Of a stretch of DNA of 64,000 nt, positions 2,461 through 54,281 are shown one piece after another. A program made the position numbers and the translations under genes. The notes under the pieces are model-generated. The model ran no database searches. It was not told where the DNA came from and was given only the letters and a program-made list of their open reading frames with translations. Numbering within the stretch: position 1 is the first letter of the stretch; every line of letters starts with the position of its first letter. The stretch comes from Chiridota heheva (Eukaryota > Echinodermata > Holothuroidea > Apodida > Chiridotidae), in contig JAIGNY010001857.1 of assembly GCA_020152595.1 (NCBI GenBank), forward strand, positions 1,232,001 to 1,296,000. Reading direction: 5' to 3'.

Positions 2461-3018
2461 CTAAAGAGGCATATACAGTATATGCCTCACAAAGGCATAT
2501 ACAGTATGCCTCACAAAGGCATATACAGTATGCCTCACAAAGGCATGTACAGTATGCCTCACAAAGGCATGTACAGTATGCCTCACAAAGGCATGTATAG
2601 TATATGCCTCACAACAGCATGTACAGTATATGCCTCACAAAGGCATGTACAGTATATGCCTCACAAAGGCATGCACAGTATATGCCTCACGACTGCATGT
2701 ACAGTATATGCCTAACATAGACATGTATAGTATATGCCTCACAAAAGCATGTATAGTATATGTCTCACAACAGCATGTGCAGTATATGCCTCACAAAGGC
2801 ATGTACAGTATATGCCTCACAAAGGCATGTACAGTATATGCCTCACAAAAGCATGCACAGTATATGCCTTACAAAGGCATGCACAGTATATGCCTTACAG
2901 AGGCATGTACAGTATGCCTCATAAAGGTATGTGCAGTATATGCCTCACAAAGGCATGTATAGTATATGCCTCACAACAGCATGTACAGTATATGCCTCAC
3001 AACAGCATGTACAGTATA
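2461..3018. repeat. Minisatellite with palindromic 23-29 bp unit (left part)
   Basis: About 20 copies. The first units contain an almost perfect dyad, GAGGCATATAC-A-GTATATGCCTC. Later units drift to GGCATGTACAGT and a second small stem, TGCCT-cacaa-AGGCA. The array is open in several frames only because the unit lacks stops. The same array resumes at 3695 beyond an inserted LINE. Confidence 0.95.
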
Positions 3019-3694
3019 TCAATTCAATTCGTAAATATCTTGATCAAAAGTCGACTAAGACACTTATTCACGCATTTGTATCATCCAGACTTGGTTGTTG
3101 CAACAGTATCTTATTTGGACTTCCTTCTCAACAAATCTCAAAGCTTCAGCGCATTCAAAACACTGCTGCCAGATTAGTTACTCTCACAAGTAAGAAATCT
3201 CACATTAAACCCATCCTCCATCAACTTCATTGGCTTCCTATATGTGAAAGAATAAAGTACAAGCTTCTCACCCTCACATACAAAGCCATCCATGGTCTTG
3301 CTCCAAATTATATTTCCAACTTAATCACGATACAATTACCAACTCGCTCACTCAGATCTTACAGTGCTATTCTCCTAAAGCCGCCAAAAATTAACACCAA
3401 GACTTATGGTGAACGTTCTTTTCAATCTGCAGCCCCCAAACTCTGGAACATTCTCCCAATCTACATCAGAAATGCCCCTACTTTAGATATTTTTAAGAGT
3501 GTATTGAAAACACACCTTTTCATGAGTTCCTCTCATTGGACCTTGTAACTTTATCCTGCTTGTATCTTTTTAGGTATGGTTTATTGCTCTCTTACTGTTT
3601 GTATCTTAAGGTTTTCTCATGTTATATTTATTTATGTAAAGCGCATTGAGACCGTTTGGTATAATGCGCTATATAAAAATGTATCATTATTATT
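3016..3694 (+). mobile_element. 5'-truncated L2/CR1-type LINE inserted in a minisatellite
   Basis: The fragment holds the C-terminal end of a LINE reverse transcriptase ORF and a typical 3' tail. The tail reads TAAAGCGCATTGAGACC, then AATGCGCTATATAAA, and ends in an ATT-type repeat (about 3682-3694), which is characteristic of L2/CR1 retroposons. Both flanks are the same minisatellite, so the LINE landed in an existing array, or the array grew from one side and was copied to the other. No convincing target-site duplication can be read because the flanks are repetitive. Confidence 0.88.
3019..3548 (+). pseudogene. LINE reverse transcriptase, C-terminal fragment
   Basis: The frame is open to a stop at 3546-3548 and encodes about 175 residues of the region downstream of the catalytic motifs of L2/CR1-type ORF2. 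Recognisable pieces in order are LIHAFVSSRLGCCNSILFGL, KLQRIQNTAARLV, LHWLPICERIKYKLL, YKAIHGLAPNYIS, and near the end GERSFQSAAPKLWNILP with FKSVLKTHLF. In intact elements this follows fingers, palm (FADD-type motif) and thumb, all missing here, so the fragment cannot be enzymatically active. The upstream start of the ORF lies in the minisatellite and is not a real start. The family is confident; the exact clade would need a phylogeny. Confidence 0.9.
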
Positions 3695-3832
3695 ATGCCT
3701 CACAAAAGCATATACAGTAAATGCTTCACAAAGGCATGCACAGTATATGCCTCACAAAGGCATGTATATTATATGCCTCACAACAGCATGTATAGTATAT
3801 GTCTCACAAAGGCATGTACAGTATATGCCTGC
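3695..3832. repeat. Minisatellite (right part, after LINE)
   Basis: Five units of the same GCCTCACAAAGGCATGTACAGTA type as at 2461-3018 follow directly on the ATT tail of the LINE. This shows that the two blocks are one interrupted array. Confidence 0.93.
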
Positions 3833-44330: not shown

Positions 44331-46669
44331 ATGCATGATTCCAACAAAACACTGATTGAAAAAGTACATTTTGCTTCTCTGCCTGACTATATGATAGTTT
44401 TTTTATTATATATATATTGTCATCATCAATAGACTAAAAGTTAAAAAGGTAGGCGGTCGGCAAAATGAGATCAGAAAACGCACGAGACAAAGTTTGTTGC
44501 TTTCTCAATAGCAACAATATGAAAATAATTGTTTCTGGCAATGGGTTAGTAAATCAATAAATATACAAGTTTGGCCTCAAAAAATCTTATTATAACCTAA
44601 ATGGCCATATCTCTCATGATGCACTATCATCCTCACAAATATGCAGTTGTTTCCAAAAGGATAATAGTCTGAATTATTTGATAATGACATCAATAAGCGA
44701 GTTGGCATTCTCTTTAAACTTATTTCAATTTCTCGGAAGAGATGCCCCTAAACTGTCATACTTGATGCTCTTGAGTTTTCACTGTGCTTTGTGTTATAAC
44801 TCCCATGTTCTTATTATGAGAGTTGAGCCCTGTAGTCCGTATTGTATAGACCATGTGACATTCAAATAAAACATATTTCTGTGAATACAATATAACATAA
44901 CTAGAGTACTTTTTGAGTTCTGGTATTGATAAACATCTGGTTAATTTACAAATATACATGTATGTATTTTCCATATCCAAATTATTTTGTTATGATATTA
45001 TTATGAGTGGGAATAAACTTTTGTTTCAGCATCAAAATCAATCATTTAGTTTTCTTTACAAAAACTTACAAACGGCTATTAACTTGTACAAAGACTGTTT
45101 TAAACAATATAAATATAATCTCACTCCTTACCATACACTACTTTTAAAGAATTCATTATTAAATAATTCATTTCAAGAATTTGATGTTATGAAACATCCT
45201 AAAACAATCATAAATGTTCCTCAATCTTACTCACCTCTTCTATTCATTTCTCTTTCTCATGGAAATTTGATATTACCCAATTCTACTCAGCTTAATCTTT
45301 TCTTTGAAACCCACTAATACAACAAATTCCATTATCATTTCACTTTTTGACTGAAAATCTGAATATTTGCACCAAATGAAAATTAAAAACGATTTGCCTC
45401 AATTTATTTTACTTTGCATTCATGGTTTTACTTGATTATTTCATCAGAAAATTATTCACCATTGTTTATTTTTATACTTGTGCCCCGTTAAATGAACTAA
45501 GCGTAATAAATAATTAAAATATACTTTCAACTCCAAAGTCTTCTAATTTGTTTTTGTTTTAAATTTATTTACATAAAGATATTCAATTGCCTCCGAACTA
45601 TTATTATATTACAATCACTTAATTGAAAGTTCAAGAAAATCAAATCATTCCTGACCTTTGATGAGCAGAAAAAGTTCAGAGCACATCACCACCTGTGCTT
45701 TCAGGCCGGCGTGACAGGCAGGACAGAAGCTACGGACTGCCAAAAACAATCTGTAAGATGTAACCTTCTAAGTTATAGTCATGGTGAACAATCTATAACT
45801 TATATCAAAACACAATCCATGAAACTGGAGGTTTCAATGGCTGTGTAGTGACAAAGTAAAATCAGCATGACAGACACGACGAAAATTACACTCATTATTT
45901 TGAAAACAACTTTCCTTGGAAAAAGCTATCTGTTCCCCCATAAAATTGAATGTGTTCTCCCTGTCAAGTTAATCCTAGCTTTTATAAGAATAATCAGTAA
46001 ATATTAAACTTATTTATTCAAAACATGTAACTGAACCAGACCCATATATGTTGTGACAGAGGGGATGTGACAGACTGACGGGACATTTTTGCATGTCTAA
46101 TGATGTCATTTTTAAAACTACTGTTTAGTTACATGGTGAGGTCACCTTGATAGAAGATAAGAATTTATCTTTGAAGCAAAAATGTCTTTGCATGTAGAAA
46201 GTAAACAACATTTCAACAACATTTTCATTTTTTTTTTTTTTTTTGTGACAGACGGGACACGTACAGCACTGCGTTTGTTTGTTTGTATTTTTTCAAAGTA
46301 TTTCGTGTTTTGGGCTAAAATTCTTTAGTGGTGAATAGGGAAGGTCAACCAATAATGATTATCTTTGAAGCATAAGAACCAGAACACAGGTCAACTCAAA
46401 TTTCAATCACAAAATAGCCAAGTGGAAATGCTATTTCTGTTTCCTGAAACTTCAAGCCTTGGTAAAAAAATAAATCCAAGTGCAGTAGAAAAAATGCAAA
46501 AACACTTTCTGAAAGCTTGATTAGTGTACTATCCAAGAATAAATGATTTACAAATAGAAAATATACTTGGAAAATTCAGGCATGTGAAACCCTTATCGGG
46601 AATCAGCCAGTCCACATATCAAAAACATCATGGAACTAAGTACTCTGAGTAAAAAATGACATTCTGTGA
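44331..46669. other. AT-rich sequence, no gene assigned
   Basis: A 134-codon frame at 44913-45317 is AT-rich and not recognised. TGACAG-n-GGGACA-like motifs are scattered at about 45707, 45868, 46058-46083 and 46245-46260, with a T-run at 46227-46243. Confidence 0.4.
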
Positions 46670-46831
46670 GCAGTTGACAACAAACATGCTGTGTTTTTAG
46701 TTCTCCTTGATCTTTCTGCAGCCTTTGACACCATAGATTATGGAATTCTTCTAGCACAACTTCATTCTATTGGTGTGAAAGGTGCAGGATTGGATCTTAC
46801 ATAAGTGCATGACAGAATTCAACATAAATGG
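46670..46831 (+). pseudogene. LINE RT motif A segment
   Basis: The translation reads AVDNKHAVFLVLLDLSAAFD then TIDYGILLAQLHSIGVKG, matching RT motif A (LDLSAAFDTID) of L2/CR1 elements with its first catalytic Asp intact. A stop follows GAGLDLT, and a shifted frame gives INGTLSSKCYLPF, the lead-in to the GVPQG motif. Upstream parts (endonuclease, fingers) are absent. Confidence 0.88.
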
Positions 46832-47417
46832 CACACTATCATCTAAGTGTTATCTGCCATTCAGCGTCCCAAAAGGCCACGCTATTATCTAAGTGTTATC
46901 TGGCATTCGGCGTCCCAAAAGGCCACGCTATTATCTAAGTGTTATCTGCCATTCGGCGTCCCAAAAGGCCACGCTATTATCTAAGTGTTATCTCCCATTC
47001 AACTTCCCACAAAGCCCGCTATTATCTAGTGTTATCTCCCATTCGGCGTCCCACAAGGCCACACTATCATCTAGTGTTATCTTCCATTCGGCATCCCACA
47101 AGGCCACACTATCATCTAGTGTTATCTCCTATTCGGCGTCCCACAAGGCCACACTATCATCTAGTGTTATCTCCTATTCGGCGTCCCACAAGGCCACACT
47201 ATATCATCTAGTTTTATCTCCCATTCGGCGTCCCACAAGGCCACACTATCATCTAGTTTTATCTCCCATTCGGCGTCCCACAAGGCCACACTATCATCTA
47301 GTTTTATCTCCCATTCGGCGTCCCACAAGGCCACACTATCATTTAGAGTTATCTCCCATTCAGCGTCCCACAAGGCCACACTATCATCTAGTTTTATCTC
47401 CCATTCGGGGTCCCACA
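46832..47417. repeat. About 45-bp tandem repeat of the RT GVPQG-coding segment, about 13 copies
   Basis: Each unit includes ATCTCCCATTCGGCGTCCCA, CAAGGCCACACT and ATCATCTAGTGTT. In the LINE frame this reads PFGVPQGHTII then a stop; in another frame it reads SVISHSASHKATL and stays open. The first units have AAAAGGCC and TAAGTG, later units CAAGGCC and TAGTG or TAGTTTT. The last unit joins back to normal LINE sequence (GSISACPPFFTIYS) at about 47417. Confidence 0.93.
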
Positions 47418-47930
47418 GGCTCAATCAGTGCCTGCCCCCCTTTCTTCACCATCTATTCCAGACAAATCGCTGCTATCGCTACAAAACATGGGCCTAATGT
47501 ACATCTATATGCTGACAACACACAACTACATATATCAATCCTTTACATTGAAACTCTAAATGCTGAACTTTCAATCTACCAACGTATTAAACAATGTGTG
47601 TTAAATATCAAATTTTGGATGACTACAAACAAAATGAAGTTGAACGATGAAAAAAAAATGAACTTATTGTTGTCACTTCGAAATATAATCCTAATAAAAT
47701 ACAAACCCAACAGATGCAAATTGGTGAATGCACCATACGACCTTCCTCCGCTGCTCGCAATCTTGGTATAATCTTCGACAACACAATGTCCATGGAATCT
47801 CATGTAAATATGCTCCACCAATCTGCCTTCTTTCATATCAGAAACATCAACAGTATCTGGAGAATTTTATCTGATAAATCAGCTGCCACTATTGTCCATG
47901 CCCTTAATTTTAACATCCTGGCTGGATAAT
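47418..47930 (+). pseudogene. LINE RT motif C and thumb segment
   Basis: FFTIYSRQIAAIATKHGP is followed by VHLYADNTQLHISI, where the catalytic YADD has become YADN. Then come QCVLNIKFWMTTNKMKLNDEK and, after a frameshift (47714-47929), MQIGECTIRPSSAARNLGII, FDNTMSMESHVN and SAFFHIRNINSI, all standard for the downstream part of L2/CR1 RTs. The region after HAL is abnormal (NFNILAG) and ends in a stop. The mutated catalytic Asp and the frameshift make it inactive. Confidence 0.88.
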
Positions 47931-48158
47931 GGTAATTCCCTATTGTATGACATCTCTGACAAATTGATTGGAAAGATTCAGCGTGTGCAAAATGCAGCGG
48001 CCCATATTTGATCAAAATCCAGAAAATATGATCACATTACACCCATCTTAAAACAACTCGACTGGCTTCCAATCCGTCACCAAATCGAATTTCAAATGAT
48101 GTTACTCACATGGAAAGCCCTTTATGGCAAATCACCTTTAAGAACTCCTCACACCATA

Positions 48159-48372
48159 CTTACTCATCATGTTACAACATAAGGTCTGCAGATAAATGAC
48201 TTCTAGCTATTCCAACAACTTCCGCAGCTTCTGGTGATAAGGCCTTTGGTAAAGCTGCACTTAATCTTACTCATCATGTTACGACATAAGGTCTGCAGAT
48301 AAATGTCTTCTAGCTATTCCAAGAACTTCCACAGCTTCTGGTGATAAGCCCTTTGCTGTAGTTGCACTCAAT
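48159..48372. repeat. 107-bp tandem duplication inside the LINE
   Basis: CTTACTCATCATGTTACAAC at 48159 recurs at 48266; both copies continue through AAGGTCTGCAGATAAATG and CAGCTTCTGGTGATAAG. The unit is not a multiple of three. Confidence 0.93.
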
Positions 48373-48610
48373 CTATGGAACTCTATTCCATTCACTGTAG
48401 TACTTCTTTATATACCTTTAAGAACAATCTTAAACATACTTGTTCACCATTGCTTATGATTGACTTTGTCCTTTGTTCCTGGTGTTTGTCATATGTATAT
48501 TTATGTTGTTTTCTTTCATGTTCTGTGTAATTTCATTGCTATATTCCCTGTTTTAACACCTCGGATTATGTTCGCATAGATGGACAACGCTTTAAAAATG
48601 CATTATCATC

Positions 48611-49278
48611 TATTGTAATTACAAACACTGCACACAAATGTTGCATCTCAAAACAAAAAAATAAGAAAACCATGAAAATAAAGAAGATATAAAACACATT
48701 TCAAAATGCACCTGGCCTGTAACTTTACACTTATATAAAAATGTTATTGAATTCTCAGATAAATAATTGTGAGTTTCTCCATATCTAACACGGAATGACA
48801 TGAGTGATGATTACTTGGAGCATGCAATATTGAGCATTACTCATCCTTAGATGAATCCACCACAGTGGCTGCATACTCAGGCAAACTTTACTGAAAATGA
48901 AGTTGATAATTAACCATTACTCTACCAGTACATTTTTGAAAACACGATTGGGAGGCAGGGTCAAAAATGGGGCATACAAAATGGCAACACGCCACATGGT
49001 AGAGTAAGGGTTAAAGCACAGGCTAATTATTGAATGGTCCTCTGTCTTCCGAGCAGTGGAGTCAAGCTCGTTCCGCTTTACTGACCCAGTGGGCCGCCCA
49101 CCGGGACAGTGCTGCATATATTTTTGTCTGCACACTTGTCGCATTTTGATTAACCTTTACTCTACCAGCAATTATTTTAAAACGCGCTTGGAAGGTGGGG
49201 TCAAAGATAGGGCACCCAAAAGGGCGATAATATCAGCCCCCATAATATCAAGAGGGGGTGGCCATGTAGTGTAGGAGG
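48611..49278. other. unique sequence with a 250-bp spaced similarity
   Basis: TTAACCATTACTCTACCAG (48911) and TTAACCTTTACTCTACCAG (49151), each followed by TTTTAAAACRCGATTGGRAGG-like sequence and GGGTCAAA(G/A)AT(G/A)GGGC, indicate a duplicated segment of about 70 bp at 240-bp spacing. A similar CCCATACTCTACCAGTGTACC lies at 60667. Confidence 0.6.
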
Positions 49279-53340: not shown

Positions 53341-53880
53341 CTAGTCTCCCATCATGTTCTTTCCAACCCATTTCTTTGGCAGATGGAATTTGAGGATAGT
53401 TAAGATGAGTTTGTATGCATACAGCTGCTTAATAGTAGCTGTTCTTGAGGCGTAAGAAAAGGCATTTCTTGATGGTAAAAGTGATTCAGGAGAGCGAGAT
53501 CTCATAAACAATAATACTCGTGCTTTATCAACAAGGTCCATTTGTTGCATGTTGTAGAGCTTGCAAACAAATTTTTCTGCATCAGTCAGAATTTCGTTTG
53601 TAAAGTTGTTGCCTTTCCCCAGGTTTCCAAGTAGACGATGGTTCTGAGTGAATACCTTCCACGCACTTTTCTTTGAATGACCAGCAAAATAAGATGTTAC
53701 GTCACTTCCAGTAAATGCATGGAATGCTGGGAGTGTAACCATGAGAGAATTTTCAAAAGACATTTGTTCAACAATATTATGCACTGGGATGAATTTTCTG
53801 TTTTTAGCAGTTTCTGCTTTCAACCACAATTTCTTTGCTGGCATGCGATGGAATTGGGAGAGTAAAAGGACAACAACATC

Positions 53881-54281
53881 TGTGTCACGTGCCTGAACAA
53901 TGACAGCCTCGGAGCTGCTGTGAATGCAGTGAAATATCATCCTCGTATCAGCTTAACATCTGTGCCACGTGCCTGAAGAATGACAGCCTCGGAGCTGCTG
54001 TGAATGCAGTGTAATATCATCCTCGTATCAGCTTAACATCCATGCCACGTGCCTGAACAACGACAGCCTCGGAGCTGCTGTGAATGCAATGAAATATCAT
54101 CCTTGTATCAGCTTAACATCCGTGTCACGTGCCTGAACAACGACAGCCTCAGAGCTGCTGTGAATGCAGTGTAATATCATCCTCGTATCAGCTTAACATC
54201 CGTGTCACATGCCTGAACAACAACAGCCTCAGAGCTGCTGTGAATGCAGTGAAATATCATCCTCGTATCAGCTTCCTCTTG
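53881..54281. repeat. 80-bp tandem amplification of a pseudogene exon segment, 5 copies
   Basis: Copies start at 53881, 53961, 54041, 54121 and 54201 with an exact 80-bp period: CACGTGCCTGAACAAYGACA, GCCTCGGAGCTGCTG, TGAATGCAGTG and CCTCGTATCAGCTTAACATC. On the minus strand the unit codes ADTRMIFHCIHSSSEAV, VQARDTDV. The period is 80, not a multiple of three, so each repeat shifts frame and produces a stop. Copies differ at about 2-6 positions. Confidence 0.96.

Follow-up and report, generated by a model that had tools for sequence, protein, structure and literature searches.

A minisatellite made of a reverse-transcriptase motif B segment inside a decayed LINE copy of Chiridota heheva

The window analysed here is a stretch of 64,000 nucleotides of the Chiridota heheva assembly GCA_020152595.1 (contig JAIGNY010001857.1, positions 1,232,001 to 1,296,000, forward strand). 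It contains a LINE copy with a tandem array in its reverse-transcriptase (RT) region, and the features of this locus are as follows:

46600..48621 (ends approximate), + strand: decayed, 5'-truncated LINE copy of the endonuclease-RT type, about 2 kb (blastn against seven other copies)
46680..46809, + strand: RT motif A region; a stop interrupts its frame ahead of the array (translation; RVT_1, E 0.026)
46832..47417, + strand: minisatellite with 12.9 copies of its 45-bp unit, which derives from the GVPQG segment (RT motif B; TRF and unit dissection)
46893..47771, + strand: fortuitous open frame of 292 codons, stop to stop, expected by chance; no Pfam match at E 0.1
47418..48158, + strand: downstream RT part, motif C decayed to YADN; identity 83-87% with 28 of 30 other copies (lower in L035 and L036, which end early)
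48159..48372, + strand: second tandem duplication, 107 bp x 2 (TRF), with a single match in each of the other copies that have the stretch (28 of 30)

In blastn comparisons with seven other copies, the LINE starts at 46608 in all seven and ends at 48606-48621. Its parts on either side of the array, 46608-46831 and 47425-48621, align in order to the other copies, which bears out the description of the array, in the preliminary account of this locus, as lying inside an otherwise collinear LINE. Other copies extend up to about 2.3 kb farther 5', and the 5' ends vary among copies. Both domains are encoded in the family: Exo_endo_phos marks the endonuclease in L051 (E 4.3e-10), and RVT_1 marks the RT in L048 (E 2.7e-15) and L041 (E 2.2e-8); the truncation of the window copy leaves no room for the endonuclease. 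ATT-repeat tails are present on most of the 10 other copies printed, and the tail of the window copy is nearly gone. A short-repeat ATT tail instead of poly(A) is typical of L2, and from the likeness of its tail we take the family to be L2-like.

Just upstream of the array, the LINE encodes VLLDLSAAFDTID, which we take to be RT motif A, and just downstream HLYADNTQLHI, presumably motif C with a D to N change (YADN), decayed. The preliminary description had placed motif A upstream and motif C downstream. Both are there, but motif C is decayed, and translation does not put motif A, the array units and motif C all in one frame. The piece with motif A matches RVT_1 weakly (E 0.026, 14.6 bits against a cut-off of 29.6). 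Pfam searches of six pieces of the window gave RVT_1 below the cut-off on one and nothing on four; an SH2_2 match on one piece (E 0.16) was taken as chance. Rfam and tRNA scans of the window found nothing. The two halves of the 107-bp duplication differ at 10 mismatches. Directly 5' of the LINE lie two dispersed-repeat blocks (window 45731-46600; query about 732-1121 and 1125-1601).

The array itself is a head-to-tail run of units of tens of bases, 586 bp in total. TRF reports a period of 45, 12.9 copies and 92% matches at exactly 46832-47417, in full agreement with the earlier claim of about 13 tandem repeats at about 45-bp spacing. A 30-nt piece of the unit, searched with up to 3 mismatches, had 7 matches in the window, all inside the array (0.00 expected from 100 shuffles). 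From 5' to 3', the unit lengths are 46, 46, 46, 45, 45, 45, 45, 47, 45, 45, 45, 45 and, for the last unit, 41. The unit variants are ordered along the array: units 1-4 carry AAGTGTTATC, and units 1-3 also CCAAAAGG; units 5-8 carry AGTGTTATC; units 9-11 and 13 carry AGTTTTATC; and unit 12 carries AGAGTTATC. PFGVPQG, which the preliminary description had as the repeated motif, is spelled exactly in 4 of the 13 units, but the others are variants of it. The first unit starts ATGG-CACACTATC, and 11 of the 12 inner junctions read GGC-CAC, that is, with one extra C. By TRF, the last unit stops at 41 of 45 bases, but the LINE resumes with GGC after one missing base, so a point loss would give the same picture as an incomplete unit.

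The state of the same site elsewhere was examined in the window's own assembly (1.1 Gb in 3744 contigs), with searches that score the best candidates only and in which an array could be missed if it lay in a diverged copy or outside the copies read. As a query, the array found 26 places, namely itself and 25 others; each of the 25 matches is 37-46 bases long, which amounts to one unit, and 22 of them match the last unit. The LINE stretch just downstream of the array gave 42 entries, corresponding to at least 39 other places (among the best 40 of 63 candidates). All but one of the single-unit places (24 of 25) adjoin a match of this downstream stretch, and in the remaining one (C1926, L059), also a LINE copy, a single segment is flanked left and right by LINE sequence. 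A separate satellite without LINE flanks, which the preliminary description had named as an outcome that would tell against its reading, is thus rejected for the places found, since all 25 other matches are single segments in copies of this LINE.

The site was read in L059 and, base by base, in 30 of the at least 39 places (20 with about 6 kb of sequence and 10 with 3-3.7 kb); nine lie outside this reading, among them C3164, which has a single-unit match. One segment is present at the site in 29 of the 31 other copies read; in L037 the segment is partly deleted, and in L055 the LINE begins at the site, being truncated there. An array of two or more 45-bp segments is absent from all 31. The preliminary description had proposed to look for a single GVPQG segment at this site in other copies, and the outcome favours an origin after insertion; because no other copy read carries the array, it is most likely private to the copy in the window. 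A tree built from the downstream stretch places the window copy with L034, L037 and L044 (support 0.999). Its terminal branch is 0.099; those of L034, L035, L036, L037 and L044 are 0.07-0.17 (the divergence of L035 and L036 is inflated, as their LINE ends inside the compared stretch), and those of the other 25 about 0.01-0.05. Among viral contigs, 5 stretches fitted a pattern, none of them a relative.

The array is a minisatellite derived from a transposable element: its units stand head to tail, the corresponding segment is single in other copies, and the flanks are those of the element, in order. On the comparison of sequences, it most likely arose in the LINE copy in which it now lies. The best explanation, to which we give a probability of about 0.88, is that a minisatellite was born inside a transposable element by local tandem duplication, followed by expansion. 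A 5'-truncated LINE copy would have inserted, decayed and lost one base in the tract GTGTTTATC; in the already frameshifted copy, the stretch ending with GVPQG would have been duplicated in tandem; and slippage during replication, unequal exchange or gene conversion would then have expanded the array to about 13 units, leaving the LINE flanks in order. The array has no evident function and is very probably a by-product of the frequent tandem duplication in this genome.

Two observations bear on the order of these events. Of the 30 copies with this site, 25 match the tract GTGTTTATC exactly and 4 have one substitution but no loss (in L037 a base is lost), whereas each of the 13 window units is without one base of the tract. 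As all 13 units lack it, the founder segment, most simply, lost the base before the expansion, and the LINE copy would therefore already have been frameshifted when the array grew. The mean divergence between units is 0.103; set against the terminal branch of 0.099, this is roughly half the divergence that two separate lineages would accumulate. The units would thus have part of the history of this copy in common, with the expansion coming after the insertion, or with the units homogenised. An origin by slippage or unequal exchange after insertion had been put forward in the preliminary description; the timing is favoured by the single-segment copies, but we only infer the route, slippage or exchange, and likewise the order of events. 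In the single-copy relatives, GGC (3 nt) occurs twice at a distance of 45 bp in 20 of 30 copies, which falls short of the direct repeats of 5-10 nt in the model of Haber and Louis. Just GGC is shared, and 11 of the 12 junctions have the extra C, so little or no direct repeat would have taken part in the first duplication; a direct-repeat start of this array is not supported (3 nt).

Could the array be older than the insertion? If the source element had already possessed it and retrotransposed with it, a state of this kind would resemble that of the 80-bp repeat at 53875-54274 of the window, which recurs as multi-unit matches at several loci; given that none of the 31 other copies has the array, including L034, L037 and L044, which group with the window copy, we regard such a history as quite unlikely. 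That the unit was an independent minisatellite into which the LINE inserted, or which the LINE captured, has a possible local precedent in another LINE fragment of the window, which the same 26-bp minisatellite flanks on its two sides (2467-3019 and 3694-3830). For the 45-bp unit, however, the 25 other matches are single segments in LINE copies, and the unit is the LINE's own RT sequence, properly placed between two RT parts, which makes this origin extremely unlikely. An error of the assembly, with the locus expanded or chimeric, would be in keeping with the result that no second haplotype was found (45000-45705 matched only itself among the best 40 of 272 candidates scored). The ordered differences among units, the continuous LINE flanks and the single segments in other copies of the same assembly nevertheless make it very unlikely, even if the exact copy number could still be wrong.

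Similar weighing applies to the idea that the array is a coding repeat protein built from an RT motif, an appearance to which the preliminary description had drawn attention, with one frame staying open through the array. A single frame is indeed open over 292 codons (46893-47771), but it begins in the second unit and mostly does not spell GVPQG: it reads mostly SHSASHKATLSSSVI, then LSPIRRPTRPHYHLV past the 47-bp unit, and downstream of the array it is the RT frame. The GVPQG frame, in contrast, runs into a stop in 10 of the 12 complete units, the exceptions being unit 4 and the 47-bp unit 8, and the phase is changed by the 46-bp and 47-bp units of this 45-bp array. When 2000 dinucleotide-shuffled 45-mers were repeated in tandem, at least one of the three forward frames was open in 99.95% of them, and because of this the open frame at 46893-47771 is uninformative on coding. 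With the stops in the GVPQG frame, the phase-shifting units, a chance-level open frame and no Pfam match at E 0.1, we reject the repeat protein as almost certainly wrong, and retain local duplication and expansion within the LINE as the preferred reading.

The same LINE family has a second array, with a period of 51 bp, between its endonuclease and RT parts, in L034 (262-865, 11.8 units) and L057 (2924-3386, 9.1 units; coordinates in LINE orientation, both loci being stored reversed). These arrays read TDEPNPDVIPLDMYTPA in one frame, save for one extra base in the first unit of L034, and their unit divergence is low (0.036 in L034 and 0.023 in L057). Of the 21 copies in which the two flanks align, 18 carry a single unit (L043 and L053, among these, with small losses), L034 and L057 carry the arrays, and L004 has a different stretch that is 22 bp longer. 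Searched against the genome, the L057 array found 25 places, with a multi-unit match in L034 and L057 only, and these two sit in different parts of the tree. One might suppose that this LINE family has served again and again as a nursery of tandem arrays, and that the 51-bp array is a protein linker of variable length, tolerated or even exploited by living elements; we consider this unlikely, if conceivable.

In the 17 single-copy relatives with readable spacing, the ends of the future unit have a direct repeat in common, at a distance of exactly 51 bp. Its length is 7 nt (TGATGAA) in 7 of the 17, 6 nt in 1, 5 nt in 5, 4 nt in 3 and 2 nt in 1; hence, 13 of 17 have 5-7 nt and fall in the Haber-Louis range, although the relatives share kinship and are not independent tests. 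At random places and spacings in L048, with a search window of the same size, a run of at least 7 has a frequency of 0.00096 and a run of at least 5 a frequency of 0.018. The 51-bp array thereby bears the Haber-Louis signature as told in PMC6947457 and PMC3389668, its period matching the distance between short direct repeats in the relatives that have a single copy. Taken together, the 45-bp and 51-bp arrays allow the importance of short direct repeats in the first duplication to be tested directly, a role that, in passages of PMC3389668, is left open for most arrays derived from transposable elements.

Tandem repeats that come from segments of transposable elements are well described, as far as passages of PMC3389668, PMC9659126 and PMC6947457 go. 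According to passages of Ahmed and Liang 2012 (PMC3389668), 7,276 of 31,472 minisatellites in the human genome are derived from transposable elements, and two established initiation models account for only 6% of those. In models presented in PMC3389668 and PMC6947457, minisatellites are born by slippage between short direct repeats of 5-10 nt (Haber and Louis 1998) or at noncontiguous repeats, with an incomplete terminal unit (Taylor and Breden 2000). Like the human minisatellites as portrayed in PMC3389668, the 45-bp array comes from an inner segment of a transposable element; unlike that set as portrayed there, it derives from the RT motif B segment of an endonuclease-RT LINE, for which the genome also holds relatives with a single copy that allow a comparison at the level of bases. 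With respect to the models as summarised in these sources, it is unlike that of Haber and Louis in being flanked by a direct repeat of 3 nt with an extra C at 11 of 12 junctions; its last unit (41 of 45 bases) may be an incomplete terminal unit as in that of Taylor and Breden, or may equally come from a point loss.

Satellites with LINE ORF2 sequence, namely chicken HinfI (from CR1) and Phodopus PROsat and Phoca Pvc 20 (from LINE-1), are likewise described in passages of PMC9659126. The array studied here shares with them, as described there, that tandem DNA holds part of a LINE coding region, and differs in being a single local array, 586 bp long and confined to one LINE copy among those read, and no satellite family. 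The literature searched, to which most subscription journals do not belong, yielded no minisatellite described as derived from an RT motif B segment. The array is a clear example of a known route of tandem-repeat birth, and an unusually well controlled one. It provides a before-and-after case of minisatellite birth, with the single-copy state kept in dozens of sister insertions of the same genome; because this state survives there, one can read off the founder sequence, where the units begin and end, and part of the order in which mutations arose.

Other tandem duplications occur in the family and in the window. L047, which was counted as having one segment, carries a 14-bp tandem duplication of its own at the same spot, bounded by TATC; L030 has a 36-bp duplication just downstream of the site, and L004 an 11-bp duplication. 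Arrays with a period of at least 7 occupy 19.7% of the window; in 20 further loci of about 6 kb each, which were picked for their LINE copies and are not a random sample, the share is 7.1%.

The 80-bp repeat at 53875-54274 lies on the minus strand and consists of five units of an unrelated, coding-like dispersed element, which read ADTRMIFHCIHSSSEA and have no Pfam match. By match coordinates, the 80-bp segment is single in some genome copies and forms multi-unit arrays in others; since both states occur, this array, unlike the 45-bp one, seems to have spread with its element or expanded repeatedly.

Minisatellites also adjoin LINE copies from the outside. The fragment between the two blocks of the 26-bp minisatellite (2467-3019 and 3694-3830) is a LINE 3' fragment, and the arrangement looks as if that LINE had inserted into the 26-bp array. 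Similar 12-bp GATCACCTGATT-like arrays directly flank the LINE copy of L037 (1203-1366 and 2482-2660, LINE orientation). In L048 (240-1410), L046 (277-1372) and L035 (667-929; all in LINE orientation), different minisatellites end near the LINE 5' end, and in L046 a similar minisatellite unit is found after the LINE 3' end as well.
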